64,000 nt of DNA from Thraustochytrium sp. TN22 (taxonomy: Eukaryota; Sar; Bigyra; Thraustochytrida; Thraustochytriidae): contig JABLUY010000014.1 of NCBI GenBank assembly GCA_013306675.1, positions 186,001-250,000 of the forward strand, given 5' to 3'. The notes beneath the pieces are model-generated. The model was not told where the DNA came from, made no database searches, and saw only the letters and a program-made list of their open reading frames with translations. The first letter of the stretch is position 1; each line of letters starts with the position of its first letter. Positions 9,678 through 59,106 of this stretch are shown here, in pieces. The position numbers were made by a program, and so were the translations under genes.

Positions 9678-12600
9678 TTACCTCGTCTTTTTGATGGACT
9701 TGTCAAGAAACTCCTTGGTCTTGCTCTGGGCCATCTTGCGTGCCAGCGAGCCGACAGGCTGGCCTGTGGTGTCGTTGGCGGCCGAGGAAGGACCTGACGC
9801 AGCCTGCCCGCCGCCGGAGGCCTGCGAGGCAGTAAATCGGTTGAAGTCGTCCTGGTCCTCCTGCGGCAGCAGCTTGACTGCATTGGAGGCCAAATGGCCG
9901 ACGGTGAGCGCTGCCTTGTACTGGAGCTCCTCGTCCGTGGACCGCGCGCGCGCCAGGCGCAAGAGTGCCTGAATGCCGCCTTCGCTGGCGATCTTGATGT
10001 GGTTCTCGTAATTGTCGGCCAGCTTGAGCAGCGCCAGGCCGGCGTAGTGGCGCGGCTCCGCCTGCGTGGACATCATGGCCACGAGCGGGCGCAGCGCACC
10101 AGCCTGGACCAGCCTAATCTGCAGATCGCGGTTCGACGCGAGGTGCGCCAGCGAAAAGGCCGCGTACTCCTGCACCTCCACATCCTCAATAGCCGCGTAC
10201 TCGATGATAATGTCCATGGCGCCGTCGCGCACAAGGTCGTCGTGGTACACCATGCTCTCGGCGAGGAGCGCAAAAACGTAGGCGCAGTTGCGCTTGATCT
10301 CCATGTCACCATTGTGCGCCTGGGAGAGCACCGTGACGAGCCCGCCCTGTTCCATGATGCGCGCTTTGACCTCCTCCGCCTCGCAGCAGCAGCCAACGCA
10401 GTAGAGCGCGCTGCGCACGCACACCAAGTCGCGCGAGTTTGCCACGAGCGACAGCACCGGCATGACGCCCTTCTCCTGCGCAATGGCCATCTTGGTCGCG
10501 GCGTGCTTGCCGAGCGCCAGCGCCGTGAGGCCGAGGATGGCGGACCGCTGCACCTCGACGTCCGGGAAGCGCACGAGGTCCACAAGCGGGCTCACCGCGC
10601 CTTCCTCCACAAGGCGGATCTTGTTGTCGCCGTGGTCGCCCAGCGCCAGGCCAGCCACAGCCAACGCCGCGTACCGCTGCACCTCAACGTCCGGGAAGCG
10701 CGCCAAGAAGAGGAGCGGCCGCGCGGCGCCCTGCTCCACGATTTCCGTCTTGTCGTCGCCGGCAGCCAGATTGCACAGCGCCAGCGTCGCGAAGCGCTGC
10801 GTGGCAATGTCCAGCGAGCGCGCCATGGCAAACAGCGTCGGGAGCGCGCCCTTCTTGAGCAGCAGCGGCTTGAGCTCGCCCGGTACGGAGATGCACGAGA
10901 GCGCGCGCGCGCAGTCGCGCTGCACGCGGGCGTCCTCACCGAGGCCGACCTCCGAGAGCACCTCGATGCCACCCTCACGCGCGATGTCCACGTGATACTC
11001 GGGCGAGTCCGCCACATTGGCAAGCGCAAAGGCGCAGTCGCGCTGCACTTCGAGGTCCTTGAACTGCATGCATGCGAGGATCTGGCCCAGACCGCCTTCG
11101 CGCACCAGCTTCGTCTTGTTCTCCTCGTTCAACGAGAAGCTCGCTAGCGCCGCCGCGGCCGTGCGCTGGTAGTCCAGCAGGGGCGACTGTGCCAGCGCCA
11201 GGAACGGCTTCAGTAGGCCCTCCTTGACAATGAAGACGCGAATCTCCGCATTCGTCGACAGGAACCGCAGACCCATGGCTGCATACCTTTGGCACACCGT
11301 ATCCGAGGAGTTTGTCAGCTTTACGAGCGCGCGAAGAGCGCCCTGCTTGTACGCCTTGATGTTGTTTTCCTCGTTGCTCGTCAGGTTCGCAAAGCACCGA
11401 CTCACATCCTGCTGCATCTCGTCATTGTTCACGTGAGCCAGCTCCACCAGGTGCGGCACGGCACCGTCTTCCACCATGATGACTTGGTTCTCCAGGTCCT
11501 CGCTCAGGTTCGCCAGCAGGCCGGCGCACTGCAGGCGCAGGTTCAGATTCAGCGACCCGCAGCAGCGCAGCACCGGCAGCAGGCCGCCCTCCTGCACAAT
11601 CATCTTTTTGATGAGCTTGTGCTGCGAGAGGTGTCGCAGCGAGGCCACCGCCAACGTGCGAAGATCCAGGGAGTCATCGCGCGCCAGCTTGATGAGAGCG
11701 TGCACACCGCCCTCCTCCGCATAGCGCTGCCGGTGGTCCGGATTGGCCGCCAGGTCGCGCATCGCGGTCGCCGCCTGCCGCTGGATCTTGATGTCCTGCA
11801 CCTGCGTCAGGTAAAAGAGCGACTGAAGGCCGCCCTTGTTGATGATGTTGGCGTGCGACTCGATGTTGGGCGCCAGCTTGCGGAACGCCAGCGCCGCATT
11901 GTACAGACACTCTGGGTCCTGCGAGAGCGCCAAGTGTACGAGGCCCACGATGCCGTTCTGAATGATCTGCGCGTGGTTCTCGAAGGACGTGAGCAGGTTC
12001 GCCACAGCGCGCGACGCCTCGCGGTGCACACTCAGGCTGGTGTGGTGCATGAGGCCGATCATGAACTCCCCGCCGCCACGCTGCGCGATAAACTTGTGTG
12101 TGTCCGTGTCCTCCGCGATATTGGCGATGGCGCCGCACGCCTGCCGCGCAATCTCCTCGTCCGGCGACTGTGCCAGCCGAATCATCACGGGCAGTACCTC
12201 GCTCGCCGCAATCGCCGGTTTGTTCTCGTCCGAGAGCGACAGGTTGCTCAGCGTCGCTGCCACCTCGCGCTGGATCTCCACTGGGCACTCGTCGCCCTTG
12301 GCGTTGACCGCCGCCGCCAACGGGCCTAGCACGCGGTGCTGCACAAGCAGCCCGCGGTTCGCTGCGTTCGTTGCCAGCCGACGCAGCGCCGCCAGAGCCA
12401 GGCACCGCGCGTTCTCGTCCTCCGAGTGCGCCAGCGCAATGAGCGGCGGGATCGCCCCGCCCTTGCCCAGCTTATTGTGGATCTCTGCGTTCGACGCCAT
12501 GTTCGCCAGCGCGAACGCCGCGTACTGCACCACGTCGTCGTCACCGCATTTGGTGAGCGCCACAAGCCGCTCAATTGACCCCTTGGCCAGCAGCACGCTG

Positions 12601-15600
12601 TGGTTCTCCTCGTTCGCACTGATGTTCGTCAGTGCCATGGCCGCGTACCGCAAAATGTCCACGTCCGTGATGCTCTCATCATCGCCAGCATCATCCGCTT
12701 CGGCGTCCGCACGCGCTGCCTCGGCGTCTTCCTTCTCCTCGCTACTGCTCCTGGCCTGCTGGCCGTTGCCGCCCGCAACGAGCGCCTCCTTCGCCTCTTG
12801 GCGGCGGTACTGACGCTCGCGGCGCTCGGCATGCGCGACACCGCCCTCCGTCCCGCGCAAAATTGGGCCCAGGCCGCCGTGCACAATAACTTGCACCTGA
12901 GTGCCGCGGTCGCAGGCGAGGTTGCACAACCCAATCAGGCCGTAGCGCTTGCAGTCCATATCCGGATCCTTGGCCACGAGCACCATGGCTTGCAAGCCGC
13001 CGCCCTTGGTCGCGTCGGCGCGCGTCGCTGCATTTGCCGCCAAGTTGCACAACGTCATGGCCGCGTACCGGCGGCAGTCCACGTCCTGGCTCTGCGCCAG
13101 CTGTACGAGCGGCACCGTGCCGCGATCCTTGATGATGGCCTCGTGGTTGGCCGGCACGCACGACAGGTTGTACAAAGCGAGCGCCGAGCTGCGCTGACAC
13201 TCGAGCCGAGACGAGTTCGCCAACTGCACCAGCGGCCCGAGACCGCCCGCCTCGACGATGCGACGCCGGTTTGGGATGTTCACACTCAGATTGCACAGAC
13301 ACATGCCGCAGTAGCGCTGCGTCTCCAGGTCCGAGGTGGCCGTGCTGCGCGTGCCGTCGATAAGCGGGCCAAGGGCGCCCACCTCGGCGATGAGCGACTG
13401 GTTGTCCGGGTTCTCCGCCAGGTTACACAGCGTCATGGCTGCGTACCGCTGACACTGTGGCGAGCCGTCTCGCAGCACCGAGACCAGTGGACCCAGGCCC
13501 TTGGCCTGCACAATGATGGCCTGGTTGCGCAGGTCGCTCGCAAGGTTGCACAGCGCCATGCACGAGGCAGTGCGGCAGTCGTCGCTCTGCTCGGCGCCCA
13601 GCAACCCGACGAGCGCGGGAACGCCCTGGCACTCTGTAATACGGCCTTGGTTCTCCGCGGCAGCTGCCAAGCGGTACAGACACCGCGCCGCGTAATGACG
13701 GCAGTCCGCGTTGGCGCTCGCGCAGAGGTGCACGAGCGGCGGGATGCCGCCGCAGCGCGCAATGGTGGCCTGGTTCAGGTGGTTAATGGCAAGGTTGCCC
13801 GTGGCCATGGACGCGTAGCGGGCCGTCTCCTCGGACGCCGACCAGCACAACTGCAGCAAGCTGCGAATGTCCTCCTTGATGTAGACGTCCGCCTGGTTAT
13901 GCGCGTTCGCCGTCAGGCTCGCGTGCGCACGCGCCACGCCCTCGCGCACCGCCTCGCTCTGCGACTTGCTCATGTGCAGGAGCGCAAGGAGGCCGTCCTC
14001 TTCGACGATGGTGAGCTGGTTCTCCGGGTTCTCCGCCATGTTGGCCAGCGTGTGCGCAATTTGCGCCATCAGGTCCACGTTTTTGGCGCCGCGCGCCGCC
14101 TCCACGAGCGCCACGAGGCCTCCTAGCTCCGTGATTTGCCGCTTTACGCGGTCATTCAAAGACATGTGCCTCAGACCGGCTGCCGCCAAGCAGGAAAGCT
14201 CCACGGAGAAGAGGTTCTTGGACACGCCAGCGTCGTCTACCTCGCGCACAAGCTCCTCGTTTGGCTTGCGGCTCTTTGCGCGGTGCGCCTCCTCGTCCTG
14301 CCGCATGCGTGCCAGCACCGAGTTCTGCTGCGCGAGCAGGTCCACCATGATCTTGAGCCCGCCCTCACGGTACAGCGTCCACTTTAGCTCTGGGTTGGAC
14401 GCGACGTCGCGCAGCGCTGACATGGCATGCATCTGGATCACGGGCTCCTCGGCGTTGAGAACCAGATTGAAGAGCGGCTTGAGGCCGGCCGATGTGCACA
14501 TCTCCGCGTGTGTGCGTACATTGGGCGTCAGCTTGCGGTAGCAGAGCGCCGCATGCAGTTGACACTGCAGGTCCTCGGACTTGGCCACACGGAAGACGGA
14601 AGGCAGCCCGTCCTCGTCCAAGAAGGTCTTGTGCGTCACGTGTAGCGAGCCCAGCAGGTTGCTCACGGCGCGCGACGCCTCGCGGTAGACCTCTACCTTG
14701 CGCGAGCGCATCAGGACCGAGAGGAAATGGATGCCCTGCTCGTCTACCATGATTGGGTGCGTCTCCGGGTCCTCTGCCACGTTGGCCAGCGCAGCGCACG
14801 CCTGGCGCGAGACCTCAATGTCCGTGCTCTGCGCCAGCGTGATGAGCACCCGGAGGCAGTCCAGGTCCGGCTTGTGCGGGCCGCAGCCGGAGAGCGCCAG
14901 CTTGGCATCGTCCGACACGCTCAGGTTGCACAGCGCCGCGGCCACCTCGCGCTGCACCTCGAGGTCGCTCGTCTTGCCGGCGTCAGCAAGCGCCGGAAAG
15001 AGCCGCGATCGCAACTCGAGCGCCTCGTCGCGGTTGCGGTCCTCGTTCAAAATGCGCCGCAGCGCCGAGATGGCCTGGCACCTGGCCTGCGCCGTGGGCG
15101 CCTTTTGTGCCACCGTAATGAGCGGTGCCATCGCCCCTGCGCGTCCGATGGTCTCCAGGAGCGCCGGGTTTTTGGCCAGCTTTCCGATCGCGAAGGCTGC
15201 GTTGAAGTGCGTCTCGGCGTCGTCGATCACGCCGGGCCGCCCGAGGGCCGCCACCAGCGGGCCGAGCGCCTCGCACTCCATGATTTGCTCGTGGTTGATT
15301 GGGTTGGCCGCCAGGTTGCCCAGCGCCAACGTCGCGTAGCGCCGCGCCTCCATGTCGTCACGCGACAGGTCGACGCGGCCCAGTTCGTCCACGCGCAGGC
15401 GCACCAAATCGGCAAGCGCGCGCACGGCACCGGCAAACTCGGGGCTCGTGGGCTCGCCAACCTCGCGCTCCACCACCTGCTCGTGGAACTTGGGCCGCGT
15501 CGTCAGGTTCATGATGCCGAGCGCGCCCAGGCGTTGGGTGACCGGGTCGGCCTCGTAGCACATGGCGCGCACAAAGGAGAAGTGCGCCCCGTCCTGGACG

Positions 15601-18600
15601 AGGCGCTCCTGCATATGGAAGTCGGCGCCCAGGTTTGCCAGCGCGCGGGTCGCCTCCCGGTACACGCCGGTCATCTTGGCATTGCGCACCGAGGTGAGCG
15701 CACACAAGAAACCGACGCCTTCGATGCTCACGATAAGCTCGTGCGTCGTATTGTTCTCCGCCATGTTGGCCAGGCACCCACAGCAGTAGCGCACCACGTC
15801 CTCCTCGCCAGTCTTGCAGAGCCGGATGATCTCCGGGAGCACCTCGTTCTGCGCGATCTCCAGCTTGGTGTTTTCGTTCATGGCCAAGTTGAAGGCGCAA
15901 GCCGCCACCTCGCGCCAGATGATGATGTCGCGCGTGCGCGCGCCCATCATGAGCGCCTCCAAGCCGCCCTCCTGCACAATACGCTCGCGCGCCTCGGGCG
16001 AGGCCGCCATGCCTCGCAGCGTGGCGATGGCCGCGCGCATATCGTCGATGTCCTCGGAGCAGGCGAGCGCGATGAGCGGCGGCAGGCCACCCTCGGCAAT
16101 GACGGCCTCGCGGTTCTCCTCCTTGGACGCTAGGTTGCACAGAGCGTACCCGATTGCGCGCTGCGTCTCGAGGTCAGCTGAGTTTGATACAGTGATGAGC
16201 GGTGCCAGCGCGCCGCCCTGCACGATGTTTTCGTGGTGCTCCTCGGCGCTGGCGATATTGCCTAGCGCCACTGCGCCAAACAGTCGGTAGGTCGTGTCGG
16301 CCGAGCACAGGAAAGACACCAGGCCGGCCACATTGATAGCGCGGGCCACTGTCTGGTGCTGGTCGCCGATGCAGCCCGAGAGCGAGAGGTTGCACAGGCA
16401 GGCCAGCACCTCATGCTGTACCGCGACGTTTGAGGACTTGGCCAGCTCCAGCAGCGGGTCCAGCGCGCCCTCTTCGATGATTAGGTTGCGAATGACAGGG
16501 TCGCACGCCAGACCGCGCAGCGCAGCCGTCGCGCGCAGTTGCGCCTCGGCATCCTCCAGGCCGATCAGGTACACGAGCGGCTCCACGACGCTCTCCTCGA
16601 GCAGCAACTGGTGATTGTCGGCGGAGGCCGCGAAGTTCGCAATGGCGAAGGTGGCCGCATTGCGGATCTCCACGTCGTCGTGCTCCATGAGCTCCGCGAG
16701 CAACGGCAGCACGGCGCGCTGAATGAGCGGTGGGTGGTTGCTGCGCGTGCAGGACAGGTTGCAAAGCCCGAAGACCGCGTAGCGCTGGCACTCAATGTCG
16801 CCGTTCCCAAATCCGGCCAGATGAATGAGCGAGTCCAAGCCGCCCTCCTGTAAGATGCGCGGCTGGTTTGCCACGTGCGTAGCCAGGTTGGAGATGCCCA
16901 TGGCCGCGTAGCGCTGGCTCATGACGTCCGGCGAGGAGAGCGCCGCGATAAGCGGCGGCAACGCGCCGCCCGAGGCGATCTCCGAGGTGTGCGCGTACTC
17001 GGCGGATAGATTGGCGATGGCGCGCGAGGCCTCGCGCTGCACGGCGATAGACTTGCTGCGCAGCACGAACTTGAGGTGCTGCAGCGCGCCGGCCTCCACC
17101 ATGGGGCCCTGATTCTCCGTGACCTCGGCCAGGTTGGCCAGCACACCACATGCCTGGTGGGCCACCTCCATGTCGCCCGAATGGCCAAAGGTGACCAGCA
17201 CCGAGAGCACGCCGGCCTTGACGATGGTGAGCTTGTTCTCCTCCGAGAGGGACAGATTGCGCAGAGCCGCCGCTACTTCGCGCAGCACCTCGACGTTCGA
17301 CCCGGACCCGAGCCGGATGAGCGGCGCCAGCGCACCGAGCTCCACGAGCTTGATCCGGTTGGCCGCGTTCAGCGCCAGATGCCGCATGGCGATTATGGCG
17401 TGCAAGTGCGTCTCCGGGTCGTCTTGCATGGCGAGGCTGACAAGCGGGCGCACAAGACCCACGCGTTCGCCAATTGCGTGCGACGCCTCGTTGGCGCAGA
17501 GACACTCGAGCGTGAAGGCTACGCAGCGGCGCGTCTCCATGTCGTCGGACTGCGCCACGCGCACGAGCGCTGGCAGGGCGCCCTGCTCAATGAGGTCAAC
17601 GTGGTTGGAGTGCTCCAGTGCGAGATTCGAGAGCCCCAGTGCGCCGTATCGCTGACACTTGAGATCCTTGCCCTTGACGTAGGCCATGATCTGCGTCAGG
17701 CCGCCGCAGGAGATGAGGTCACGCTGCGAGTCCGAACACGAGGCAAAGAGCGCCAGACAGCGCGCTACCTCACGCTGAATCTCCGCCACTTCCGAGCCGG
17801 CCACCTTCATGAGCGCGGCCAGCACGCCCTCTTCGATCATGATGCGCTGCGTTCGGCCCTCCACCATTTCGGCGATGTTGCCGATGGCGATGAGCGCGTA
17901 GCGTTCCCGCTCACGGTCGCACGACTGTACGAGCTGGATGAGCGCCGGCAGGCAGCCGGAGCGGCCCACGGCCACCTTGTTCTCCTCGTTGAGCGTGAGA
18001 TTACAAATGGCGGCGGCAGCCTCGCGCTGCGTCTCGATACTGTCGGCCTGTGCCGCAAGAATGAGCGGCTCCACACCGCCATTCCGCACGATGGCCAAAC
18101 GCACATCGGCGTTGACTGCGAGGCCGCGCAGCGTCGCGACGGCCTGAAACTGAACGTTTTCGTCGCCAGGAAAGGCGAAGGAGATGATGGGTTTGAGGCA
18201 GCCGCCCTCCACGATGGTATCAAGGTTGTTCGGGTTGGAGGCGAAGTTGCCGAGCGCGTAGATGGCATGCTGGCGGCAGACGACATCGCGCGACTTGCTA
18301 AAGCCCACCACGAGATCTAGCGTGCCGGCGTTGATGAGGTACTCATGGTTCTCGTGCGAGACAGCCAGATTGGCCAGGCAGAGCAAGGCGTATCGCTCGG
18401 TCTCGGCGTCGGAGGTCGTGTTCGGGTCAAGCCCCTTGGATGCCATGGTAATCATGGGCTCCACGACCTCCATGAGCACGAGCTTGGGCTGAAGCTTGAT
18501 GTTGGTGGCCAAGTTCGCCAGCGCCATGGAGGCCATGCGCTGGCAACCCATGTCGTCATAGCGCAACATGAGCACGAGGCAGTCCACGACGCCGCCGCGG

Positions 18601-21206
18601 AACATCTCCTCGCCGTACTCGCAGTTGGCCGCCAGGTTGCCCAGGCAGCGCGCGGCCTCGCGATTGGCAAGCGGTGCATCCGTCTGCAGCGCGCGGATGA
18701 GCGGGGCGATGGCACCCTTTTGTACGATGAGCGGCTGGTTCTCCACCTCCTCGGCCAGGTTGGCCAGCGTGCAGCAGGCCTGGCGTGCCATCTCCTCGTC
18801 TTCAGTCACCGAGCAGAGCTCGATGAGCGGCTCGAGGCCGCCGTGGCGGCAAATCTCCATCTTGTTGGCGTCTGCAAAACTCAGCGTGCACAGCGCCGGA
18901 AGCACCTCGCAGTGGATCTCAGCGTCGTTGGTGCGTGCAAGGAAGAGCACAGGCTCCAGGCCGCCTTCGTCCGTAATCTTCTTGCGGATTTCCGCATTGT
19001 GCGCCATGCGCACGAGCGCAAATGCGGCGTACTGGCGCACCTCTGGATCGGGCGAGCTGGACAGCGAGATGAGGAGCGGCAGAGCGCCCTCTTCGACGAG
19101 TTGGACGTGGTTCTCCACAGAGGACGCCAGGTTCGCGGTGGCGAGCACGGCAAAGCGCTGGATCTCGAGCTCGAGGTCCTCGGAGCGCGCCAGTGACATG
19201 AGCGGCTCCAGCGCTCCGGATTGCATGAGGGTGACTCGGTGCTTCGTGTTGGTGGACAGGTTGCCAATGCCCATGGCGCCCACGCGCTGCGAGGCCGTGT
19301 CGGGCGACAGGAGGTAGGAGATGAGGACCTGGTGGCCGCCGTTATCCACGACGCGCTCCTGGTTGCCCTCCTCGGCGGCCAAGTTGGCGATGGCGCGGCC
19401 GGCCTCGCGCTGCACCTCAACAAAGGGCGAGCGCAGTGCCTGCACAAGCTTCTCCACCGCCTGCTCATGACCCAGCTTGACCTGATTCTCCGGGATCTCC
19501 GCCACGTTGGCCAGGGCCGCGCAGGCCTGTCGCGAAACTTCCATATCCTCGTTGAGCGCGTGCTGCACAAGCGGCGGGAGCGCGCCGCTCTTGGCCATCT
19601 CGAACTTGGTCTCATCTGAAATGCTCAGGTTGCAGAGCGCCGCGACGACCTCGCGAAGCACCTCCACGTCGCGCGACTTGGTGAGCAGCACAAGGGGCTC
19701 CAGGCCACCCTCCTGAACGATCTTCATCTTGTTGGTGTCATTCACCGACAGGCCTCGGATTGCCGCCGCCGCTTGGTTGTGCACGTCCGGGTCCCGCGAG
19801 TAGCAGAGCGTGATGAGCGGCTGCAGACCGCCCATTTCGACAATGACCTCATGGTTGCGCGCGTTGGACGCCAAATTCGCAAGCGCGTATGCCACGTAGT
19901 ACTGGCTCATCACATCCGCCGCGTTTGAAAGCGAGTACAGGGCCGCCAACACCCCCTCCTGCAGCAGCGCGGGGTGGTTACTGATTGTGGCCGCCAGGTT
20001 CGCGATGCAGAGCACTGCGTAGCGGCGCGCTTCAATCTCGCGCTCGGAGTCGCCGGCCAGCTCGATCAGAGGCGCCACCGCGCCCTCCTGCACAATCTTG
20101 ACCTGGTACGCAACATTGGTTGCCAGGTTCGCGAGCCCCAGCGCGCCAAAGCGCTGCGAGCTGATGTCCCGCACCGAGAGCGCGTCGATGAGAGGGCGCA
20201 TGCCGCCCTCGCGCATGATCTGCTGCTGCACATCCCGGTTGGCCGCCAAGTTGGCAATGGCTCGGCACGCCTCGCCCTTGGTGGCGACATCATCCGAGAC
20301 AGCCAGGGCGATGAGCGGCGGCAGGCCGGACTCCTCCAGTAGCTTGTCGTGCAGTTCAACCATTTCCAGCAGGTTGGCCATCGTGCAAACCGCCTGCTTC
20401 TCCACCTCCGCATCGCCCGAGAGCGAGAGCGAGATGATGGTCGAGATGGCGCGGTCTGCGATCTCCGACTTGTTCTCATCCAGCGATGACAGCGAGTTGA
20501 GCGCCGCGCCGACCTCGCGCTGAATTGCCACGTCGTCGGACCGCGCCATGAGCACGAGCGGGTCCAGCACGCCCTCCTTGACAATCAGCGCGCGGTTCTC
20601 CGGTGTGATGGCCAGACCGCGCAGGCAGGCAAGCGCCTGGCGTTGCACGTTGGAGTCATCCGAGCAGGCCAGCTCCACAAGAGGAGCGATGGCGCCCTCC
20701 TCCACGATGCGTGCGCGGTACTCCTCATTGGACGCCAGGTTGCTGATGGCGAAGGCGGCATACCGGCCGCATTGGACGTCCTCTGCGCGGAGCAGCATGA
20801 TGAGGGATTCGATGGCGTTGAGCTGCACAATCTCCTCATGGTTGGCTGTGTTGGCTGCTAAATTTCCGAGCGCTAGCGCTGCATACTGCCGTCCTATGGT
20901 GTCTCCGGCTTCATTACCTATATAGTTGATGAGCGGCCGGCACACGCCCGCGTGCACCATCTTGACGCGGTTCTCCGCCGTCGATGCGATGTTGCCCAGC
21001 GCCAGCGCCGCGAAACGTTGCGTCTCCAGGTCTGCCGTGCGCTCCAGCAGCTGGATTAGCGTTGCGCATCCTCCCTTTTGCACGACACGCGTGTGGATGT
21101 CAGGGTGCGTCGAGAGGTCCGCAAGGCCGAAGGCCACTTCGCGCTGCTCACGCGGGCGCCGCACGCGCCTGCCGCGTGCGATCAGCGTCTCCAGCACCTT
21201 GGCCAT
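9678..21206 (-). CDS. Giant armadillo-repeat protein (about 88 ARM repeats)
   Basis: A single uninterrupted frame of 3842 residues from the first ATG at 21206. The frame stays open upstream only from a TTG at 21431, through Arg/Pro-rich sequence I take as leader. Almost the whole protein is about 88 armadillo-like repeats of some 41-42 residues. Each has the signature of a QRYAA-ALANLA helix, then an N-x-x-I-V helix and an EGGL/GALPPLI helix. This resembles Vac8 and beta-catenin-type ARM arrays, but both have around a dozen repeats. Repeat subtypes recur in fixed order with a period of about seven repeats. An acidic Glu/Ala/Asp-rich linker (about residues 2785-2850) interrupts the array. The C-terminal 60 residues are Ser/Gly/Ala-rich and end Lys-rich. 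No enzyme domain, signal peptide or membrane span is visible. The likely role is a very large scaffold; partners are unknown. It is head-to-head with KAP3, itself an ARM protein. Confidence 0.92.
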   Translation of the reverse strand: MAKVLETLIARGRRVRRPREQREVAFGLADLSTHPDIHTRVVQKGGCATLIQLLERTADLETQRFAALALGNIASTAENRVKMVHAGVCRPLINYIGNEAGDTIGRQYAALALGNLAANTANHEEIVQLNAIESLIMLLRAEDVQCGRYAAFAISNLASNEEYRARIVEEGAIAPLVELACSDDSNVQRQALACLRGLAITPENRALIVKEGVLDPLVLMARSDDVAIQREVGAALNSLSSLDENKSEIADRAISTIISLSLSGDAEVEKQAVCTMANLLEMVELHDKLLEESGLPPLIALAVSDDVATKGEACRAIANLAANRDVQQQIMREGGMRPLIDALSVRDISSQRFGALGLANLATNVAYQVKIVQEGAVAPLIELAGDSEREIEARRYAVLCIANLAATISNHPALLQEGVLAALYSLSNAADVMSQYYVAYALANLASNARNHEVIVEMGGLQPLITLCYSRDPDVHNQAAAAIRGLSVNDTNKMKIVQEGGLEPLVLLTKSRDVEVLREVVAALCNLSISDETKFEMAKSGALPPLVQHALNEDMEVSRQACAALANVAEIPENQVKLGHEQAVEKLVQALRSPFVEVQREAGRAIANLAAEEGNQERVVDNGGHQVLISYLLSPDTASQRVGAMGIGNLSTNTKHRVTLMQSGALEPLMSLARSEDLELEIQRFAVLATANLASSVENHVQLVEEGALPLLISLSSSPDPEVRQYAAFALVRMAHNAEIRKKITDEGGLEPVLFLARTNDAEIHCEVLPALCTLSFADANKMEICRHGGLEPLIELCSVTEDEEMARQACCTLANLAEEVENQPLIVQKGAIAPLIRALQTDAPLANREAARCLGNLAANCEYGEEMFRGGVVDCLVLMLRYDDMGCQRMASMALANLATNIKLQPKLVLMEVVEPMITMASKGLDPNTTSDAETERYALLCLANLAVSHENHEYLINAGTLDLVVGFSKSRDVVCRQHAIYALGNFASNPNNLDTIVEGGCLKPIISFAFPGDENVQFQAVATLRGLAVNADVRLAIVRNGGVEPLILAAQADSIETQREAAAAICNLTLNEENKVAVGRSGCLPALIQLVQSCDRERERYALIAIGNIAEMVEGRTQRIMIEEGVLAALMKVAGSEVAEIQREVARCLALFASCSDSQRDLISCGGLTQIMAYVKGKDLKCQRYGALGLSNLALEHSNHVDLIEQGALPALVRVAQSDDMETRRCVAFTLECLCANEASHAIGERVGLVRPLVSLAMQDDPETHLHAIIAMRHLALNAANRIKLVELGALAPLIRLGSGSNVEVLREVAAALRNLSLSEENKLTIVKAGVLSVLVTFGHSGDMEVAHQACGVLANLAEVTENQGPMVEAGALQHLKFVLRSKSIAVQREASRAIANLSAEYAHTSEIASGGALPPLIAALSSPDVMSQRYAAMGISNLATHVANQPRILQEGGLDSLIHLAGFGNGDIECQRYAVFGLCNLSCTRSNHPPLIQRAVLPLLAELMEHDDVEIRNAATFAIANFAASADNHQLLLEESVVEPLVYLIGLEDAEAQLRATAALRGLACDPVIRNLIIEEGALDPLLELAKSSNVAVQHEVLACLCNLSLSGCIGDQHQTVARAINVAGLVSFLCSADTTYRLFGAVALGNIASAEEHHENIVQGGALAPLITVSNSADLETQRAIGYALCNLASKEENREAVIAEGGLPPLIALACSEDIDDMRAAIATLRGMAASPEARERIVQEGGLEALMMGARTRDIIIWREVAACAFNLAMNENTKLEIAQNEVLPEIIRLCKTGEEDVVRYCCGCLANMAENNTTHELIVSIEGVGFLCALTSVRNAKMTGVYREATRALANLGADFHMQERLVQDGAHFSFVRAMCYEADPVTQRLGALGIMNLTTRPKFHEQVVEREVGEPTSPEFAGAVRALADLVRLRVDELGRVDLSRDDMEARRYATLALGNLAANPINHEQIMECEALGPLVAALGRPGVIDDAETHFNAAFAIGKLAKNPALLETIGRAGAMAPLITVAQKAPTAQARCQAISALRRILNEDRNRDEALELRSRLFPALADAGKTSDLEVQREVAAALCNLSVSDDAKLALSGCGPHKPDLDCLRVLITLAQSTDIEVSRQACAALANVAEDPETHPIMVDEQGIHFLSVLMRSRKVEVYREASRAVSNLLGSLHVTHKTFLDEDGLPSVFRVAKSEDLQCQLHAALCYRKLTPNVRTHAEMCTSAGLKPLFNLVLNAEEPVIQMHAMSALRDVASNPELKWTLYREGGLKIMVDLLAQQNSVLARMRQDEEAHRAKSRKPNEELVREVDDAGVSKNLFSVELSCLAAAGLRHMSLNDRVKRQITELGGLVALVEAARGAKNVDLMAQIAHTLANMAENPENQLTIVEEDGLLALLHMSKSQSEAVREGVARAHASLTANAHNQADVYIKEDIRSLLQLCWSASEETARYASMATGNLAINHLNQATIARCGGIPPLVHLCASANADCRHYAARCLYRLAAAAENQGRITECQGVPALVGLLGAEQSDDCRTASCMALCNLASDLRNQAIIVQAKGLGPLVSVLRDGSPQCQRYAAMTLCNLAENPDNQSLIAEVGALGPLIDGTRSTATSDLETQRYCGMCLCNLSVNIPNRRRIVEAGGLGPLVQLANSSRLECQRSSALALYNLSCVPANHEAIIKDRGTVPLVQLAQSQDVDCRRYAAMTLCNLAANAATRADATKGGGLQAMVLVAKDPDMDCKRYGLIGLCNLACDRGTQVQVIVHGGLGPILRGTEGGVAHAERRERQYRRQEAKEALVAGGNGQQARSSSEEKEDAEAARADAEADDAGDDESITDVDILRYAAMALTNISANEENHSVLLAKGSIERLVALTKCGDDDVVQYAAFALANMASNAEIHNKLGKGGAIPPLIALAHSEDENARCLALAALRRLATNAANRGLLVQHRVLGPLAAAVNAKGDECPVEIQREVAATLSNLSLSDENKPAIAASEVLPVMIRLAQSPDEEIARQACGAIANIAEDTDTHKFIAQRGGGEFMIGLMHHTSLSVHREASRAVANLLTSFENHAQIIQNGIVGLVHLALSQDPECLYNAALAFRKLAPNIESHANIINKGGLQSLFYLTQVQDIKIQRQAATAMRDLAANPDHRQRYAEEGGVHALIKLARDDSLDLRTLAVASLRHLSQHKLIKKMIVQEGGLLPVLRCCGSLNLNLRLQCAGLLANLSEDLENQVIMVEDGAVPHLVELAHVNNDEMQQDVSRCFANLTSNEENNIKAYKQGALRALVKLTNSSDTVCQRYAAMGLRFLSTNAEIRVFIVKEGLLKPFLALAQSPLLDYQRTAAAALASFSLNEENKTKLVREGGLGQILACMQFKDLEVQRDCAFALANVADSPEYHVDIAREGGIEVLSEVGLGEDARVQRDCARALSCISVPGELKPLLLKKGALPTLFAMARSLDIATQRFATLALCNLAAGDDKTEIVEQGAARPLLFLARFPDVEVQRYAALAVAGLALGDHGDNKIRLVEEGAVSPLVDLVRFPDVEVQRSAILGLTALALGKHAATKMAIAQEKGVMPVLSLVANSRDLVCVRSALYCVGCCCEAEEVKARIMEQGGLVTVLSQAHNGDMEIKRNCAYVFALLAESMVYHDDLVRDGAMDIIIEYAAIEDVEVQEYAAFSLAHLASNRDLQIRLVQAGALRPLVAMMSTQAEPRHYAGLALLKLADNYENHIKIASEGGIQALLRLARARSTDEELQYKAALTVGHLASNAVKLLPQEDQDDFNRFTASQASGGGQAASGPSSAANDTTGQPVGSLARKMAQSKTKEFLDKSIKKTR

Positions 21207-21903
21207 CTTCTCGAGGACCGCGAGCGCCGCTGCCCGCGGTCTCGCGTCGTTCTTTGCGGCCTCGCGCCGCGCGCCTCTAGCTCTAGCTCTACTTCGTCCA
21301 GGTGACCGGCGGCGACCGCTGCCGCTGCCGGGCGACCAGGGCTGCGACACGGGCGAAGGACCGGGCGCTTCACTGAGCGACCCTTTCCCCGCTCTTGCCA
21401 AGGGCGGCCCTTGCCCGCGACTCTGGCTCAAGGCGCGATGTGATGTGTGAGCTTGGCGGGCCCGTCAGAGTCAACGGACACATGTTTGCTAGTTATGCGC
21501 GCGCTGTCTCTGTCAACGTGCTCGCACCGCCTCTCATCCCTTAGCATCGACCAGACGAGATCGCTCAAATCGCCTGCGCTGGTGGAGCAAGCCGCGGCGG
21601 CGGGGCACGAGCGCGCCGCGCTCCGGGTCTGTGTGCCGGCTGGCTGTTCAAGCCGCGCACGCCCGGGCAGCTGCGTCAAGGGCGAGCGAGCGAGCATCCA
21701 AGCAGCTCAGCTCGCTCGACGAACTTCGAGCTTGCCGGAGCTGAAGCTTGAAAGCTCGGGGCAGCAGCAGCGAGGTGCTCTCACCAGCGAAGCGCGCTCC
21801 CGGTGAAGAGCATCGTAAACGTCTCGCGCTGCGCAAGCGCGCGCTGACGCAGGTCGTCGTGGTCGGTGCGTCGGACTGCATTTTCTAAGAAGTCCAGCAC
21901 CAA
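21207..21903. promoter_or_regulatory. Shared upstream region of the giant ARM gene and KAP3
   Basis: These 697 bases lie between two divergent start codons. The left third is still open in the ARM frame but has no ATG and is Arg/Pro-rich, so it is probably leader. A CTAGCTCTAGCTCTA stretch lies near 21280. I found no RFX X-box-like palindrome by eye. Confidence 0.4.
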
Positions 21904-24756
21904 ATGCCGACGCATCATGACTACGATGCGGCGCCAGCGACGCAGTACGACGGTACAGACTACCGCGAAAACCCCAAGTACCTGAAGCGCAAGGTGAAGT
22001 CGGGTCACGTGACGCTGGATGAGAGACGGCGCGACCTGGTGCTGACGTACGAGGTCGAGGCGACGGTGGTGGGAGACACGGGCAAGGCGATGCAGACGGA
22101 GCGCAAGACACATAGCATGGCGATGAAGGTGAAGCTAGACGCGCACACAAACGTACAGCTATACGCGCGGCAGCTGGTAAGCCAGAGCGACCTGATTCCG
22201 AACAGCAAGGTGGATCACGTGGAGCGTCTGCTGCAGCAGCTCAAGGAGCTGACGTTGGAGGACCGGTACCGAGCGGATTCGTCCAAGAAGGTGACGCGCG
22301 ACAGCGAACGCAAGCGTAAGGAGGAGCACCGGCGGGCGAAGCGCGACGCGCGGCGGCAGCGCGAGGAGGAAAAGGCCAAGGAGGAGCAGGCCAAAGCAGA
22401 TATGGAGGACTTGGACGACTACCTGGAGAAGCTGTACGAGGAGGATATGGATGCAAAGGTGGCAGGCACGGGCATGATCTTGCAGCTGGCGCGCAACGCT
22501 GGGAATCTGGAGGATCTCTCGGAGAACGAGGCGCTCATGGGCGCACTCTCGCGCACGCTGCACGAGGATGCGCGTCGCAAGATGGAGCTGGCGCTGCAGA
22601 TCATGAACATCTTCTGCGCCTTCTCCACCTTTTCGCAGTTCCACCAGTGTCTGCACAGCTACCAGGTGGGCAACAACACGATGCGCATCATTCGGTGGGA
22701 GTTGGAGCGGCACGATGCGCGCGTGCAGGAGATGACTCTCCTCGAGCGCGTCGCCGAGGCGCAGGCACGCGGTGAGGAGCCCGAGGTGGATCCGCGCAAG
22801 TCCAAGAAGCGCGCTGAGCCCGTGGACCTCAAGATGGAGCGTGCCAAGACGCGCGCCCTGGAGCGCAAGCAGGACAAGCTGCTCTCGGCCTGCATGCACG
22901 TGTTGCTTAACCTGGCTGAGGACGACCGCGTGGAGCGCAAGATGGCCAAGCGGGATTTGGCAAAGGACCTGGTGCGCATCGTTTCGACGCGACAGTCCAA
23001 AAATGCGGACCTCCTCGTGCAGGTATGCACCTTCATTCAGAAGCTGGCCATCACGCGCGAGAACAAGGACGCTTTCCGCGACCTGCGTCTGGTGGAGCAC
23101 CTCATCAACTTCATCCCGTGCTCCAACGAGCGCCTCATGCGCACCGTGCTCTCAGCGCTGTTCAACCTGTCCTTTGACGCGACTGTCCGCGAGCAGCTTG
23201 TCAAGGCCTCGGCCATCCCGAAGCTGGTTGACCTGCTGCAGGAGAAGCAGTACCGCGGCGCTGCGCTGCGCCTGCTGTACCACTTGTCCATGGACGACGC
23301 TTGCAAGTCCATGTTTACCTACACAGAGCTGATCCCCTACATGATGCGTATGATCATCGACTTCCCCGCGCCGCACGTCGCCAAGGAGCTCGCAGCGCTC
23401 GCCATTAACCTGAGCCTGAACGAGCGCAACTGCAATTTCATGTGCCAGGGCACCAACTTCAAGGGGCTTATCGAGCGCGCCATTAAGCGCCAGGACCCCC
23501 TCCTGCTCAAGGTCGTGCGCAACCTGGCGCGCTGGACGCTCGGCATGCAGACCTCGCTGCCGGACCCGCGGCCCACCGCGCGCGCTGCAGCGGCCGCCGA
23601 TGAGAAGCGCATCGACGCGCTCTGCCGCGGGGGTGAGTCCAAGAACGGCCAAGACGACGAAGAAGAAGACGGTGTCGTCGGCCAGGACGCCGCTGCGCTC
23701 GTGCGCGCCGGCTCGGGCTCCTCTCCGGGCAGCTCGAGCCGGTCCGGAGCGCGTGCCGCGGACTACAAACACAAGCGGATGTGGGGCCCTTACGTTAAGG
23801 ACCTTATCGTCCTTATGAAGCACACGGACAATCAGGGCGTTCTTGTGGAGGCCATGGGGATCCTCGCCTGCCTGACGCCGGCCGACCTCCCCAAGTCCGA
23901 CAGCTTCGGCCATCTTATTCTCGAGCACGACCTCATCGAGTTCCTGCACAAGCACCTGCTTCCGGGCTTCTCCGAGGATGATCTCTTGCTCGAGGTCATT
24001 ATGATGCTCGGCCAGTTCTGCCTCGACGCTGATGCTGCGCGCCTGCTCTGCGGCTCGCCGCTCATCAAGCTCGTCTACGACGTCCTGCACGAGAAGCAGG
24101 ACGACGCCGAGATTGTCCTGCAGACGCTTTTCACCTTTCACCGTCTCCTGCGCCACAAGACCACGGGCCACGCGCTGCTCTATGAGACCCAGATGCCGCG
24201 AGACGTGTGCGAGCTGCTCGAGCACGCCAACCCGGTCGTGCGGTGCATGGCCGACAACCTGCTGGACCTCGTTGTGGACCATGACGAAGCCAACGAGACC
24301 TCCATGGACCTCAACCGCCGCCTTGCGCGCAAGGCCATGGCCGGCTCCCGCGACGAGAACGCGCGCCGCCGCCGTGGAGACCTCAACGACATCGCCGACG
24401 ATGGCCCCGACAGCATCGACCTCGACCAGGACTACTACTTCGAGCTCAAGGGCGCCATCTCCAAGATGGTCCGCGCCAAGCGCTTCAGTATCCACAACAA
24501 GGAGTGGGTCGATATGGTCACCCAGGAGGAGCTCGACGAGCTCGAGGACGAGGAGGACTCCGAATCCGACATTCACGCCCACCCCCACCCCCGCCGTCAT
24601 CGTCGCCACGACGACCTCCTTGACGACGAGGAGGAAGCCATCCGCGTGCACGCCGCCGCTTACCGTCACCACGCTGCCGACTACAACCCGGCCAGCCCGC
24701 TCTCCCCGGACTCCTTCCTCAACGACAACTCCCTCTCTGTCATCGAGGACTACTAA
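21904..24756 (+). CDS. KIFAP3: Kinesin-associated protein 3 (KAP3), kinesin-II subunit
   Basis: 950 residues, single exon, starting at ATG 21904. KAP3 is the non-motor ARM-repeat subunit of heterotrimeric kinesin-II, which drives anterograde intraflagellar transport. Family landmarks are in order: YLKRKVKSG near residue 26, the VTYEVEAT-like strand, the acidic DDYLEKLYEED segment, ILQLARN, FCAFSTFSQFH, LLNLAEDDRVE, IPCSNERLM, LFNLSFD, LYHLSMDD-CKSMF, DPLLLKVVRN, EDDLLLEVIMM and the tail NKEWVDMV. This follows animal KAP3 along its length. Odd points are a charged insert (about 120-165) and a low-complexity insert near residues 555-620 between ARM repeats; the latter has no stop and stays in frame. 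The C-terminal tail is Asp/His-rich. Presence implies a cilium or flagellum built by IFT. Confidence 0.95.
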   Translation: MPTHHDYDAAPATQYDGTDYRENPKYLKRKVKSGHVTLDERRRDLVLTYEVEATVVGDTGKAMQTERKTHSMAMKVKLDAHTNVQLYARQLVSQSDLIPNSKVDHVERLLQQLKELTLEDRYRADSSKKVTRDSERKRKEEHRRAKRDARRQREEEKAKEEQAKADMEDLDDYLEKLYEEDMDAKVAGTGMILQLARNAGNLEDLSENEALMGALSRTLHEDARRKMELALQIMNIFCAFSTFSQFHQCLHSYQVGNNTMRIIRWELERHDARVQEMTLLERVAEAQARGEEPEVDPRKSKKRAEPVDLKMERAKTRALERKQDKLLSACMHVLLNLAEDDRVERKMAKRDLAKDLVRIVSTRQSKNADLLVQVCTFIQKLAITRENKDAFRDLRLVEHLINFIPCSNERLMRTVLSALFNLSFDATVREQLVKASAIPKLVDLLQEKQYRGAALRLLYHLSMDDACKSMFTYTELIPYMMRMIIDFPAPHVAKELAALAINLSLNERNCNFMCQGTNFKGLIERAIKRQDPLLLKVVRNLARWTLGMQTSLPDPRPTARAAAAADEKRIDALCRGGESKNGQDDEEEDGVVGQDAAALVRAGSGSSPGSSSRSGARAADYKHKRMWGPYVKDLIVLMKHTDNQGVLVEAMGILACLTPADLPKSDSFGHLILEHDLIEFLHKHLLPGFSEDDLLLEVIMMLGQFCLDADAARLLCGSPLIKLVYDVLHEKQDDAEIVLQTLFTFHRLLRHKTTGHALLYETQMPRDVCELLEHANPVVRCMADNLLDLVVDHDEANETSMDLNRRLARKAMAGSRDENARRRRGDLNDIADDGPDSIDLDQDYYFELKGAISKMVRAKRFSIHNKEWVDMVTQEELDELEDEEDSESDIHAHPHPRRHRRHDDLLDDEEEAIRVHAAAYRHHAADYNPASPLSPDSFLNDNSLSVIEDY

Positions 24757-25140
24757 TTAGACGACGGCACCACCGCATGCAACATTCCTGGCCCGTAAGA
24801 GTGGCCGCTCTCGGCCAAAGAATCGATCTGTCCATCCCATGGCTTTACTCCCTGTCAGCGAGCGTGACATCGAACTTGAGCTTGAGCCCAAGCGAGTTGG
24901 TTGAGTTGACGTTGGGGTTACGTTGACTTCCGTTGACTCGGACGCATCGTGGTAGCGTAGCAAGTCTGCTTCAAGTCCCACAGAGTCCCAACCCCCGAAA
25001 GGTCGCGCGCGGAAGACGGCGACGAGCGGCGCGGCGCGGCGCGGCGCGGCGTGGGGTAGCGTGGCGCAGCACCGCCGGGCGCGGCGCGGCGCGGCGCGGC
25101 GCGGCGCGGCGCGGCATAGGGGGGCGCGCGCCTGGTCGAC
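24757..25140. promoter_or_regulatory. KAP3 3' flank and DNAAF5 upstream region
   Basis: 384 bases without a gene. Three TTGAC motifs lie at 24906, 24923 and 24933. A G/C-only tandem run (GGCGC units, 25028-25112) fills most of the last 110 bases before the DNAAF5 start codon. Confidence 0.45.
25028..25112. repeat. GGCGC pentanucleotide tandem repeat
   Basis: Two blocks of perfect GGCGC units are separated by a short unique segment (about 25053-25078), directly upstream of the DNAAF5 start codon and probably in its leader. Confidence 0.85.
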
Positions 25141-27591
25141 ATGGCGGAGGCGGCATGGGCCGACCTCATGGCGAGCGACGAGGCGGCGCTGCGGCAGCAT
25201 AAGGAGAACAAGCGGACGTCGTCGGTGCAGCAGCACATGGCTGCGGACGACGTGCTGCGCGCCCTCATGAAGTCCGACAGCAAGAAGACGAAGAAGGCCA
25301 AGTCCAAAACCAAAACCAAGACGAAAATGGCGAACGTCCAGAAGCCGACGCGGGAAAACGATGTGGAACGGGGCTCGCCAGAGGCCGCTGTAGCGCCCAA
25401 GACAGCCAAGGCGCTCCCCGTAGAGGTGCTGCAAGACCCGGCCCTTGTGCTTCGCGTGCTGCAGCGCGACATTAACCTTCTGGGCGACGCCAAGGAGGCG
25501 CAGACGCGCATCAGCGCGGCGCAGAGGCTGATGGGCGTGCTGTTCCCTGAACAAGACGCACCTGAGGAGGAGGAGAGCGGAATGGACGAGGGAGTGCTGG
25601 GCGGAGTGTTTGCGGAGCTACAAAAGCCGCTGCTGCGGCGTTTGGGCGACCCGGCCGAGCGATGCCGCGAGTTGTCTGTGGTGATGCTCACCAAATTCCT
25701 CGGCCGCTGCCAGGACCTGGGACCCGTGCTGCCTTACCTATTTCCGGCCGTGATGGACCGGTGCTCGGACAGCTTCGCGTTCGACGTGGAGAACAACATG
25801 CTGGTTCGCGACGTGGAGGCGCATGAAGAGCGGCAGCGCGGCAAGGCCGTGACGCTACCGGACGGCGGCACCGTGTACAAGCACAGCGTGCGGGAGCCGT
25901 CCGAGGAGGTACGGTTGCTACTGTGCGGGATGCTGGAGACCTTGCTCGACTCGTTCCTCTCGCGCGAGCTGCACTCCATGCTAGGCCCTTACTTTCATGA
26001 CATGGTGATGTTCTTCCATGCGAGCGCGGTGGACCCGTACCCGACGCTGCGCATCGAGGGTCTGCGCGCGTTGCAGCGGCTCGCGCAAGAACGCGCCTTC
26101 GAGAATACGATGCACCACTACTGCACGGCACTGGTGCGGTCGGTGATGCCGAGCCTGCGGCACCGGCGGTCGTCGGTCAAGGTGGCCGCGCTGCGGTGCA
26201 TTGGCGCGCTGGTGGCCTGCCCGTACCGCAACAAGTGCAGGGGTGGCGGAACCGAGGCCATCGTGGATCTAGTGGGCTTTCGCGAGGACAACGTGATCCC
26301 CATCTGCGCCTTTTACCAAGGTGAAACGCGACTCAACTACCTAGGTCACCTGGTGACGGATGAGAACGCCTCTGTGCGGCTGGAGCTGTACAAGACGCTG
26401 GGCGGCTGGCTGACCGGCCTCCTGGACCGCTGGGACCACGCCGCCCGGCTGCTACCATTCTTTTTGAGCGCGCTGTCGGACTCGTGTGAGGCGGCGCAGG
26501 AGACCGCGCTGGAGACCCTGGACGAGCTCGGCCGCCAGTACGAGGAGGAACACCAGGACGACGTTTTGGAGAAACGTCAGTATGGCGTGGACGGCGCGCA
26601 GGGCCGTGCGAATTACGCCAAGCCGCTGCCAGCCCCGTGGAAAGCGCGGCCGCGCATCGGAACCCGCATGTACGTGCGCCAGCACTGCCGGCGTTTCCTG
26701 CACACGGTGCTGCGCGAGCTGCAGGACTGGAAGTCGACGACGCGGTCGCACGCGGTAGGCCTGCTGCGCACCATGCTCGTCTACATGGAGGAGCACGTGA
26801 CGATGGAGCTGCACTCGCTTATGCAGACGTACCTGCGGTTAAGCCAGGACCCGGAGGCGGGTGGGCGAATTGCAGAGTGCGCCGAGCTGACGGGTCGCTT
26901 CGTGGACCCAGAGGCGTACCTCGCACTCCTGCTGCCGCACGTGGAGGGCGCCGAAGGCTCGCACGGCTTAGCGGCTGAGGCGCGCTGGGAGGCCACGGCG
27001 CGGGCGCTGGCCGTTTTGCGGCCGGCGCTTGATGGTTCGCTGCCCTCGCACGTGGTGCCGCACTTTTCGGAGTTGGCGCGCGTGCTGACGGCGCCGGTGC
27101 TCGTGCGCGCTGCAACGCAGCGGCCCTCGCTGCGCGCACAGCTCGTCAAGGCCATGGAGGTACCGGCTCGACTTTTGGGATCCAGCGAAGGCGGCCGCGC
27201 GGCGGCGGACGCGCACTTCATCGCGACGGGCCGCCTCAGCTCGCTTCGCAAGGAGGCTGCGGACCTGCTTGCAGGCGCGGCTCGGCTTGCGGATAGTGTT
27301 GGTGGTGGTGTCAACATCAGCAGGAGCACCACCAGCTTGGAAGCAGAAGATACCGACGAAGGCCGGCTGCTTGGCCTCCTGGTCGACGCGACAGCGAGCT
27401 TTGGCGCGCCCGGCGATTTGCTTGCCGCCCGGGTCATTGTGACCGCCGGCCACGGAACCGTCGCGGACCCTGACGCATGGGGCGCGCTCAAGGCGCTTGC
27501 GCGGTTGCGGCCGAGCGAGACGACACAAGCCGCCCTGGAGAAGCTGGTGGAGTCCGGCGTGGGCGCTCTGCAGCTCGACGAGGAGAATTGA
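25141..27591 (+). CDS. DNAAF5: Dynein axonemal assembly factor 5 (HEATR2)
   Basis: 816 residues, single exon. DNAAF5 is a cytoplasmic HEAT-repeat factor needed to pre-assemble axonemal dynein arms. After a Lys-rich N-terminal stretch (about 40-65), the HEAT solenoid carries segments matching the animal protein: LGDPAERCREL, EEVRLLLCGMLETLL, SSVKVAALRCIGALV, ENASVRLELYKTLGGWL followed by LLPFFLSALSD, EELGRQYEEE-like (DELGRQYEEEHQDD), RIGTRMYVRQHCRRFL, MLVYMEEHVTMEL and ELTGRFVDPEAYLALLL. The order and spacing agree with DNAAF5 over most of its length. The C-terminal third is less conserved and Ala-rich. It follows KAP3 in the same orientation, 384 bases downstream; both serve motile cilia, though each has its own upstream region. 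Confidence 0.88.
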   Translation: MAEAAWADLMASDEAALRQHKENKRTSSVQQHMAADDVLRALMKSDSKKTKKAKSKTKTKTKMANVQKPTRENDVERGSPEAAVAPKTAKALPVEVLQDPALVLRVLQRDINLLGDAKEAQTRISAAQRLMGVLFPEQDAPEEEESGMDEGVLGGVFAELQKPLLRRLGDPAERCRELSVVMLTKFLGRCQDLGPVLPYLFPAVMDRCSDSFAFDVENNMLVRDVEAHEERQRGKAVTLPDGGTVYKHSVREPSEEVRLLLCGMLETLLDSFLSRELHSMLGPYFHDMVMFFHASAVDPYPTLRIEGLRALQRLAQERAFENTMHHYCTALVRSVMPSLRHRRSSVKVAALRCIGALVACPYRNKCRGGGTEAIVDLVGFREDNVIPICAFYQGETRLNYLGHLVTDENASVRLELYKTLGGWLTGLLDRWDHAARLLPFFLSALSDSCEAAQETALETLDELGRQYEEEHQDDVLEKRQYGVDGAQGRANYAKPLPAPWKARPRIGTRMYVRQHCRRFLHTVLRELQDWKSTTRSHAVGLLRTMLVYMEEHVTMELHSLMQTYLRLSQDPEAGGRIAECAELTGRFVDPEAYLALLLPHVEGAEGSHGLAAEARWEATARALAVLRPALDGSLPSHVVPHFSELARVLTAPVLVRAATQRPSLRAQLVKAMEVPARLLGSSEGGRAAADAHFIATGRLSSLRKEAADLLAGAARLADSVGGGVNISRSTTSLEAEDTDEGRLLGLLVDATASFGAPGDLLAARVIVTAGHGTVADPDAWGALKALARLRPSETTQAALEKLVESGVGALQLDEEN

Positions 27592-57696: not shown

Positions 57697-57737
<41 letters not shown>

Positions 57738-58137
57738 GGCGTACTACGGCATGCTGACACCCGAACAGCAACAAGAGCGGTACAGGCAGGCGCAGGAGGC
57801 GGCGCGGCGTCACCACAGCGCGAGCTCGGAGAATGGCTACACCGTGCCAGCAGCGCTCGGTGGCCAGCAACTGGCGCAGCAGCAGGCAACGCCACAGCAG
57901 CAACAAGGCATGCCCCAGCAACAGGAGCAGTACATGCAGATGTTGCAGCAGCAACAGCTCGCAGCGCGTCAGCAGGCGGAGATGCAGGGTCGTGGCTACC
58001 CGATGCCGCAGTATTCCATACCCCAGGCCCAAGCGATGGCAATGCAGCAAGGCATGGTGCACCCGTACCAGCAGGTCGCCACGCAGCAGCAACAGCTCAT
58101 GCAGCAACAACAGCAACAGCAGCTAATGCAGCAGCAA

Positions 58138-58169
<32 letters not shown>

Positions 58170-59075: not shown

Positions 59076-59106
<31 letters not shown>

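Follow-up and report, generated by a model that had tools for sequence, protein, structure and literature searches.

A giant armadillo-repeat gene of a thraustochytrid with a seven-repeat cycle concentrated on the putative peptide-binding face

Introduction

Most armadillo (ARM) repeat proteins have some 6 to 13 repeats, and Vac8, a myristoylated and palmitoylated member, has about 12. Giant modular proteins are known as well: in nebulin and titin, a seven-module super-repeat matches a periodic filament. Here we describe a giant ARM-repeat gene of Thraustochytrium sp. TN22 (genome size 37.9 Mb), found in a window of 64,000 nucleotides, the whole stretch analysed, which covers positions 186,001 to 250,000 of contig JABLUY010000014.1 and has a GC content of 65.9%. 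The predicted protein has 3842 amino acids (aa) and 88 repeats, and most of its N-terminal part follows a cycle of seven repeat types.

The way in which ARM repeats bind peptides is known from importin-alpha and from designed ARM proteins. According to two studies, peptides lie along the face formed by the third helix of each repeat (H3), one dipeptide per repeat (PMC6838082, PMC4756613), with a groove spacing of 8.6-8.8 angstrom per repeat in importin-alpha (PMC4756613). The same studies place Glu30 and Trp33 in the peptide site of designed ARM proteins and describe an asparagine ladder that binds the peptide backbone (PMC4756613, PMC6838082).

A seven-repeat cycle in a giant ARM protein

The gene is a single open frame on the minus strand (Table 1). 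The frame extends from 9678 to 21431 (3917 codons) with TTG at its start, and its first ATG is at 21206. The GC content by codon position was 0.74/0.48/0.78 from approximately 21200 compared to 0.70/0.76/0.72 immediately upstream; as a reference, it was 0.68/0.42/0.85 for the whole giant gene and 0.67/0.36/0.86 for the adjacent KAP3 gene. Because the position-specific GC shifts to a coding pattern at approximately 21200, the ATG at 21206 is on compositional grounds a credible start, and an additional exon may lie upstream.

The protein is a member of the ARM-repeat superfamily, formed of tandem three-helix repeats of approximately 41 residues that match PF00514 (E = 9e-278; 16 Pfam families matched at E <= 0.001). 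A hidden Markov model (HMM) iterated on the protein's own repeats recognized 87 of them, a few weakly, and one further repeat at aa 2038 was assigned by eye. The resulting total of 88 agrees with the approximate count in a preliminary description made from the sequence alone. Structure prediction of two adjacent super-blocks (units 4-18) gave, as that description had supposed, an ARM solenoid of H1-H2-H3 triplets, with a predicted local distance difference test score (pLDDT) of 91.6 and a predicted template modelling score of 0.80. The motifs by which the repeat types were told apart had been assigned to helix 2; they actually lie in H3. The MAFFT alignment behind the first fold was shallower than its nine rows imply, since row 2 duplicates part of the query and row 3 part of row 2, and its first super-block was almost without aligned rows. 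The last quarter of the protein is set apart by an acidic linker and ends in a basic tail. When the C-terminal 1,059 residues were folded alone the model was poor (pLDDT 63.5), and it was used for disorder and helix order only.

The seven types, A to G, recur in a fixed order over the first 52 units. BLOSUM autocorrelation of aa 1-2050 gave peaks at 41, 82, 289, 248 and 330 residues. At the level of whole units, lags 7, 13 and 6 stood out in units 1-50 (z 4.3, 4.4 and 2.6, respectively), while lags 2 and 3 were below chance (z -2.0 and -2.2). In a held-out test, types were set by position alone from units 5-18 and the unseen units were then classified by similarity. Steps of +1 were found in 25 of 69 cases over units 19-88, compared to 11.4 under the null, and in 17 of 33 over units 19-52, compared to 5.0 by chance; neither 25 nor 17 was reached in any of 20,000 shuffles. 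Within units 5-18 the best partner was seven units away for nine of the 14 (chance 1.1) and elsewhere for five. Smith-Waterman self-alignment of the unit string scored 21.9, whereas none of 100 shuffles exceeded 11.5, and the top unit-level self-alignments had offsets mainly of 13, 7 and 6. In a tree of 52 units there were 12 type changes, compared to a shuffled mean of 35.7 and minimum of 30 (500 shuffles); since similarity partly set the type labels, the tree has less independence as a test than the held-out comparison. In a MAFFT alignment of stretches precut near cycle boundaries, six of the eight added rows shared the register on the second super-block, unit 40 (called E) was placed under C, and the other two added rows repeated the query sequence. 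An unsupervised cyclic expectation-maximization with 2 to 12 types was discarded, as its labels merely advanced along the protein, one type per unit, and its likelihood grew as types were added.

Judged by autocorrelation, held-out test and tree, the seven-repeat cycle in units 1-52 is real. This bears out the preliminary description, which had followed seven subtypes from the N terminus to about repeat 50 with occasional losses and had expected a period near 290 residues. It had also expected repeats seven apart, not neighbours, to cluster. Neighbours do not cluster in units 1-52; in units 51-88 they are alike, the strong lags there being 1 (z 4.9) and 19 (z 4.1), with lag 7 at z -0.4. The cycle is imperfect, with six-repeat cycles present and units 53-66 devoid of it. 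Divided at each return, the types of the first 52 units run DEFG ABCDEFG ABCDEFG BCDEFG ABCDE G ABCDEFG ABE G ABCDEFG ABCD, which we read as copies of the whole cycle, some of which have lost one to three units. Cycles of six units or fewer, in which A, F, or C, D and F together are absent, occur several times, and offset 13 is for this reason as strong as offset 7. A return of the cycle after the acidic linker, also proposed earlier, held for units 67-71 and was weak thereafter.

Table 1. Coordinates of the giant gene, its parts and the adjacent genes within the window
Feature	Position	Strand	Remarks
Giant ARM-repeat gene	9678..21206	-	single open frame, 3842 aa, 88 repeats
Units 1-52, aa 17-2211, seven-type cycle	14574..21158	-	type order DEFGABCDEFGABCDEFGBCDEFGABCDEGABCDEFGABEGABCDEFGABCD
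Units 4-18, aa 140-757, two adjacent super-blocks	18936..20789	-	predicted three-helix ARM solenoid
Units 53-57, aa 2212-2457	13836..14573	-	with units 49-52 forms the nine-unit block that recurs 19 units later (68-76)
Units 58-65, aa 2458-2784	12855..13835	-	run of QRYAAMTLCNLA-like repeats, neighbours alike, without the seven-cycle
Charged acidic linker, aa 2785-2847	12666..12854	-	predicted disordered (pLDDT < 50 over aa 2784-2845)
Units 66-77, aa 2848-3342	11181..12665	-	cycle resumes (67 G, 68 A, 69 B, 70 C, 71 D), then blurs
Units 78-88, aa 3343-3795	9822..11180	-	diverged ARM repeats
C-terminal tail, aa 3796-3842	9681..9821	-	Ser/Gly-rich, then basic predicted helix (low-confidence model)
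Interval between the giant-gene ATG and the divergent KAP3 ATG	21207..21903	.	697 bp
KAP3 (kinesin-associated protein), head to head with the giant gene	21904..24756	+	PF05804 E 1.6e-149; PDB KAP3 E 5.7e-119
DNAAF5 (dynein axonemal assembly factor 5), next after KAP3	25141..27591	+	PF25757 1.2e-40, PF24573 7.5e-28

Distribution of the cycle over the repeat

The columns that carry the cycle were located with a label-free test, in which lag-7 pairs (units 1-18) and lag-13 pairs (units 2-38) were compared over 38 unit columns with shuffled order. Phase memory was strongest in columns 10, 17, 7 and 14 (z 7.6, 6.6, 5.7 and 4.0, respectively; jointly z 9.8), and was z 0.9 for helix H2. The four columns are spaced as one face of H3, which the model puts at columns 2-16 of unit 4, with column 17 just beyond the helix end. 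In HMMER alignments of units of types G, B and D, columns 10 and 14 aligned with the H3 Trp and Asn of importin-alpha. Asn occupies column 14 in 55 of the 88 units, forming an Asn ladder on the H3 groove. Judging by their spacing, columns 7, 10, 14 and 17 probably correspond to positions 30, 33, 37 and 40 of designed ARM proteins. On this face types A-D are polar: column 7 carries Q/E, type C has E at 17, type D has R at 10, and type A has R at 13 and lacks Asn. Types E-G, with F/Y at column 7 and L/F at column 10, are aromatic or aliphatic there. The units that return after the linker keep the residues of their types (unit 69, E7/N14; unit 70, Q7/N14/E17; unit 71, E7/R10/N14). These comparisons show that the memory of the cycle, as read from aligned residues, is concentrated on that face of H3 with which importin-alpha and designed ARM proteins hold their peptides, a feature newly described here.

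Duplication history

Three lines of evidence, from the held-out test of phase, the self-alignment of units and the repeat tree, support growth by copying of a block of approximately seven repeats (289 residues). The preliminary description had suggested duplication of a block of about 290 residues; this part stands, and the history appears more mixed than a single block would give, with whole-cycle copies, single-unit losses, a local expansion of units 58-65 and a nine-unit block (49-57) that reappears at offset 19 as units 68-76. Between units in phase, identity is 39% at the residue level and 53% at the base level, and third codon positions are 0.43 identical compared to a composition floor of 0.37. 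Since in-phase repeats are 39% identical and their third positions lie near the composition floor, the duplications that created the cycle are old, and relatives would therefore be expected in related species.

Proposed function and its alternatives

We put forward, at about even chances, that the protein is one continuous or once-hinged solenoid of 88 ARM repeats that acts as a long scaffold whose groove has a period of seven units. Each period would present four polar or charged units (A-D) followed by three aromatic or hydrophobic ones (E-G), so that each super-block might grip the same or a similar ligand segment, and the protein could align one partner in many copies, or a single long partner with internal repeats. 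With 8.6-8.8 angstrom per repeat, the groove would measure approximately 61 angstrom per super-block (7 repeats) and approximately 76 nm overall (88 repeats), and the acidic linker may be the hinge. A more specific version, which we think decidedly unlikely, is a molecular ruler: the grooves of the super-blocks would bind successive copies of a periodic flagellar partner, or of a repeated ligand elsewhere in the cell, and the number of super-blocks would set a length or spacing. Nebulin and titin offer the analogy, with the difference that they have other folds and belong to muscle filaments, whereas the periodic partner of the giant protein is hypothetical.

Several points weigh against a scaffold with a periodic ligand. 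In the held-out test the cycle was absent from units 53-66 (+1 steps in one of 13, P = 0.86) and was weak past unit 71; over units 66-88 as a whole it was marginal (seven of 22, P = 0.044). Phase memory was also found beyond the groove, in the other columns of 1-17 (z 5.3), in columns 18-38 (z 4.5) and in helix H1 (z 4.8, with columns 22 and 19 contributing most). The lags of the column test were picked after discovery, with a few of its pairs out of phase, and the per-type residues lean to H3 because the labels were drawn largely from H3 motifs, a bias that the label-free test avoids. The constraint is deduced from paralogous repeats of one species, the periodic ligand is putative, being a step that we infer from the groove memory, and conservation of the H3 residues in question could reflect contacts of each repeat with its neighbours and not a ligand.

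The last point leads to a different account, in which the cycle is a mere trace of block duplication, or is held by neighbour-repeat contacts, and the groove has no periodic ligand. Duplication is indeed well supported, the memory outside the groove fits this account, and charged groove residues might pair between adjacent units, the candidates being E17 of type C and R10 and E7 of type D. Against it, silent sites are close to saturation, and a neutral trace should not favour one helix face while H2 keeps none. We regard it as doubtful.

Relation to other ARM proteins

The best native match in the PDB, by sequence and by structure, was Vac8, which like the giant protein is an ARM solenoid with Asn at the H3 groove position. 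In length the giant protein does, as had been claimed from the sequence, greatly exceed Vac8 and beta-catenin; in the best 60 of 158 PDB matches, no chain is longer than 1,048 residues. A role as a much lengthened Vac8-like tether, at a membrane or the vacuole, would account for this ranking. It seems unlikely, as consensus-like ARM repeats would be expected to draw Vac8 in any search, and no lipidation motif was visible by eye in the frame upstream of repeat 1, where an upstream exon is possible. Nor do the Vac8 repeats follow the seven-type order significantly (best phase P = 0.69; runs of 3 to 7 units P 0.09-0.71, the best runs of 3 and 5 having P 0.092 and 0.087), in a test with eight recognized repeats that are not all contiguous and at least one missed between them. 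Nor was a shared phase significant for Vac8 as a possible source of the seven-block, again with these eight repeats and at least one missed.

A transport adaptor like importin-alpha would explain the Asn ladder, and importin-alpha is present among the PDB matches. The groove Trp is gone, though, Trp making up 0.1% of the giant protein; the importin-beta-binding domain is not among the 16 Pfam families matched at E <= 0.001; and the protein is far longer than the importin-alpha chains among the best 60 of the 158 PDB matches. Such a role is very improbable. In consensus designs the internal repeats are alike, whereas in the giant protein seven types alternate and the groove is without Trp.

No paper naming the giant protein or its architecture was found in the literature searched, and the eukaryotic proteins compared were those of the PDB and of the organism's own genome. 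Queries of IMG/VR and GTDB with the single protein and with three blocks gave no relative confirmed by tblastn; the pattern scan was insensitive and shows little. Two matches at E < 0.001 were obtained among viral predicted structures, with root-mean-square deviations (rmsd) of 13.8 and 17.8. We suspect that other stramenopile genomes may hold similar giants that have escaped annotation.

The best match elsewhere in the organism's own genome was an ARM paralogue on contig C115, with an open frame of 1480 aa and 30% identity over approximately 550 residues. It has 12 HMM matches, some weak, and in our reading alternates with period two. Locus L013 on this contig (G000:C115:24937-29580) encodes an ARM protein whose repeats seem to alternate with period two (AGALANMA / ARAIFALA), followed by a region that looks BTB-like by eye. 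A different ARM protein, at L020 (G000:C248:11587-15627), has 44-residue repeats; because several of them are identical, its expansion is recent, unlike that of the giant gene.

Gene neighbourhood and a possible flagellar role

The giant gene stands head to head with KAP3, with DNAAF5 beyond (Table 1), and both neighbours are ciliary genes; a PDB search with the DNAAF5 open reading frame (ORF) gave zero matches at E <= 0.001. This arrangement raises the possibility of a flagellar scaffold, axonemal or basal-body, made together with KAP3 for the zoospore flagella and running along a periodic ciliary structure. ARMC4/ODAD2, an ARM-repeat protein of the outer dynein arm docking complex, was the best native PDB match after Vac8 for the whole protein, for aa 2840-3842 and for units 4-18, and the first three Foldseek rows were ciliary doublet entries with an ARMC4/ODAD2 chain. 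The genome also holds motile-cilium genes, with 18 Dynein_C matches, two RSP3 matches and IFT57. In contrast, in the searches made Vac8 outranks ARMC4 by sequence, as importin-alpha also does for aa 2840-3100. ARMC4/ODAD2 has 1044 aa compared to 3842 for the giant protein and aligns over 437 residues with aa 2920-3356; its chain superposed poorly on the predicted units 4-18 (rmsd 9.4 over 575 residues), which lie elsewhere than this best sequence-aligned stretch.

Divergent gene pairs would be expected to be common in a compact genome, and a control did not point to clustering of ciliary genes. It covered 20 loci, namely 17 dynein heavy chain genes (3' side, approximately 1.4 kb of flank), two RSP3 genes and one IFT57 gene, with 40 of 45 listed ORFs scanned; not included were an eighteenth heavy chain, located where its contig ends, and another match to the IFT57 family. 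Of the 20 loci, 14 gave a Pfam match, which passed the curated cut-off at 13 of them, and no match within these short flanks was diagnostic of cilia; EF-hand and cNMP-binding neighbours were compatible with cilia and not diagnostic. Farther ORFs of the window with a family match include those for RRP9, DGAT, an FG nucleoporin, a WD40-bromodomain protein and PRPP synthetase, whose names do not point to cilia; a leucine-rich-repeat protein and a kinase, also encoded there, could belong to either group. Because ciliary genes showed no general clustering in these short flanks, the neighbourhood is a lead and not support, and it may be due to chance. A flagellar scaffold is put forward only tentatively, as less likely than not. 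For the scaffold reading itself, the flagellar apparatus would be the single likeliest site of action, which we offer as a first guess, with the balance of probability lying against it.

The 11-mer TCCGTTGACTC occurs once in each intergenic stretch beside KAP3 (21207-21903 and 24757-25140), together with further CGTTGAC copies. As a ciliary promoter motif it was rejected: the genome has seven copies compared to five for the reversed control, and four of the five copies outside both intergenic stretches fall inside long ORFs. A near-perfect GGCGC run (period 5) lies at 25030-25118, just upstream of the DNAAF5 start.

Elsewhere in the window, an ORF of 2915 aa at 50971-59718 has WD40 repeats and a bromodomain and resembles BRWD/PHIP. 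Another ORF, of 1425 aa at 2789-7066, has a GC content of 0.76/0.51/0.79 by codon position and zero Pfam matches at E <= 0.001. Polyunsaturated fatty acid (PUFA) synthases of the PfaA type mark thraustochytrids among eukaryotes, and G000:C124 (26703-35603 and 38227-41142) holds one with a frame of 3044 aa and a score of 2539.7 bits, together with a second synthase-like frame nearby in the opposite direction. The presence of this synthase agrees with a stramenopile, probably thraustochytrid, origin of the genome.

Implications

An array of 88 repeats with a period in its ligand groove would, if confirmed, be a natural long modular peptide-binding solenoid, which is the goal of designed ARM proteins, and a period written in the groove would open a sequence-based route to predicting the repeating partner. 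If the ruler reading were true, the protein would be an all-helical counterpart of the super-repeats of nebulin and titin. If its place is the flagellum, the protein would add a large new structural part to the known heterokont flagellum.
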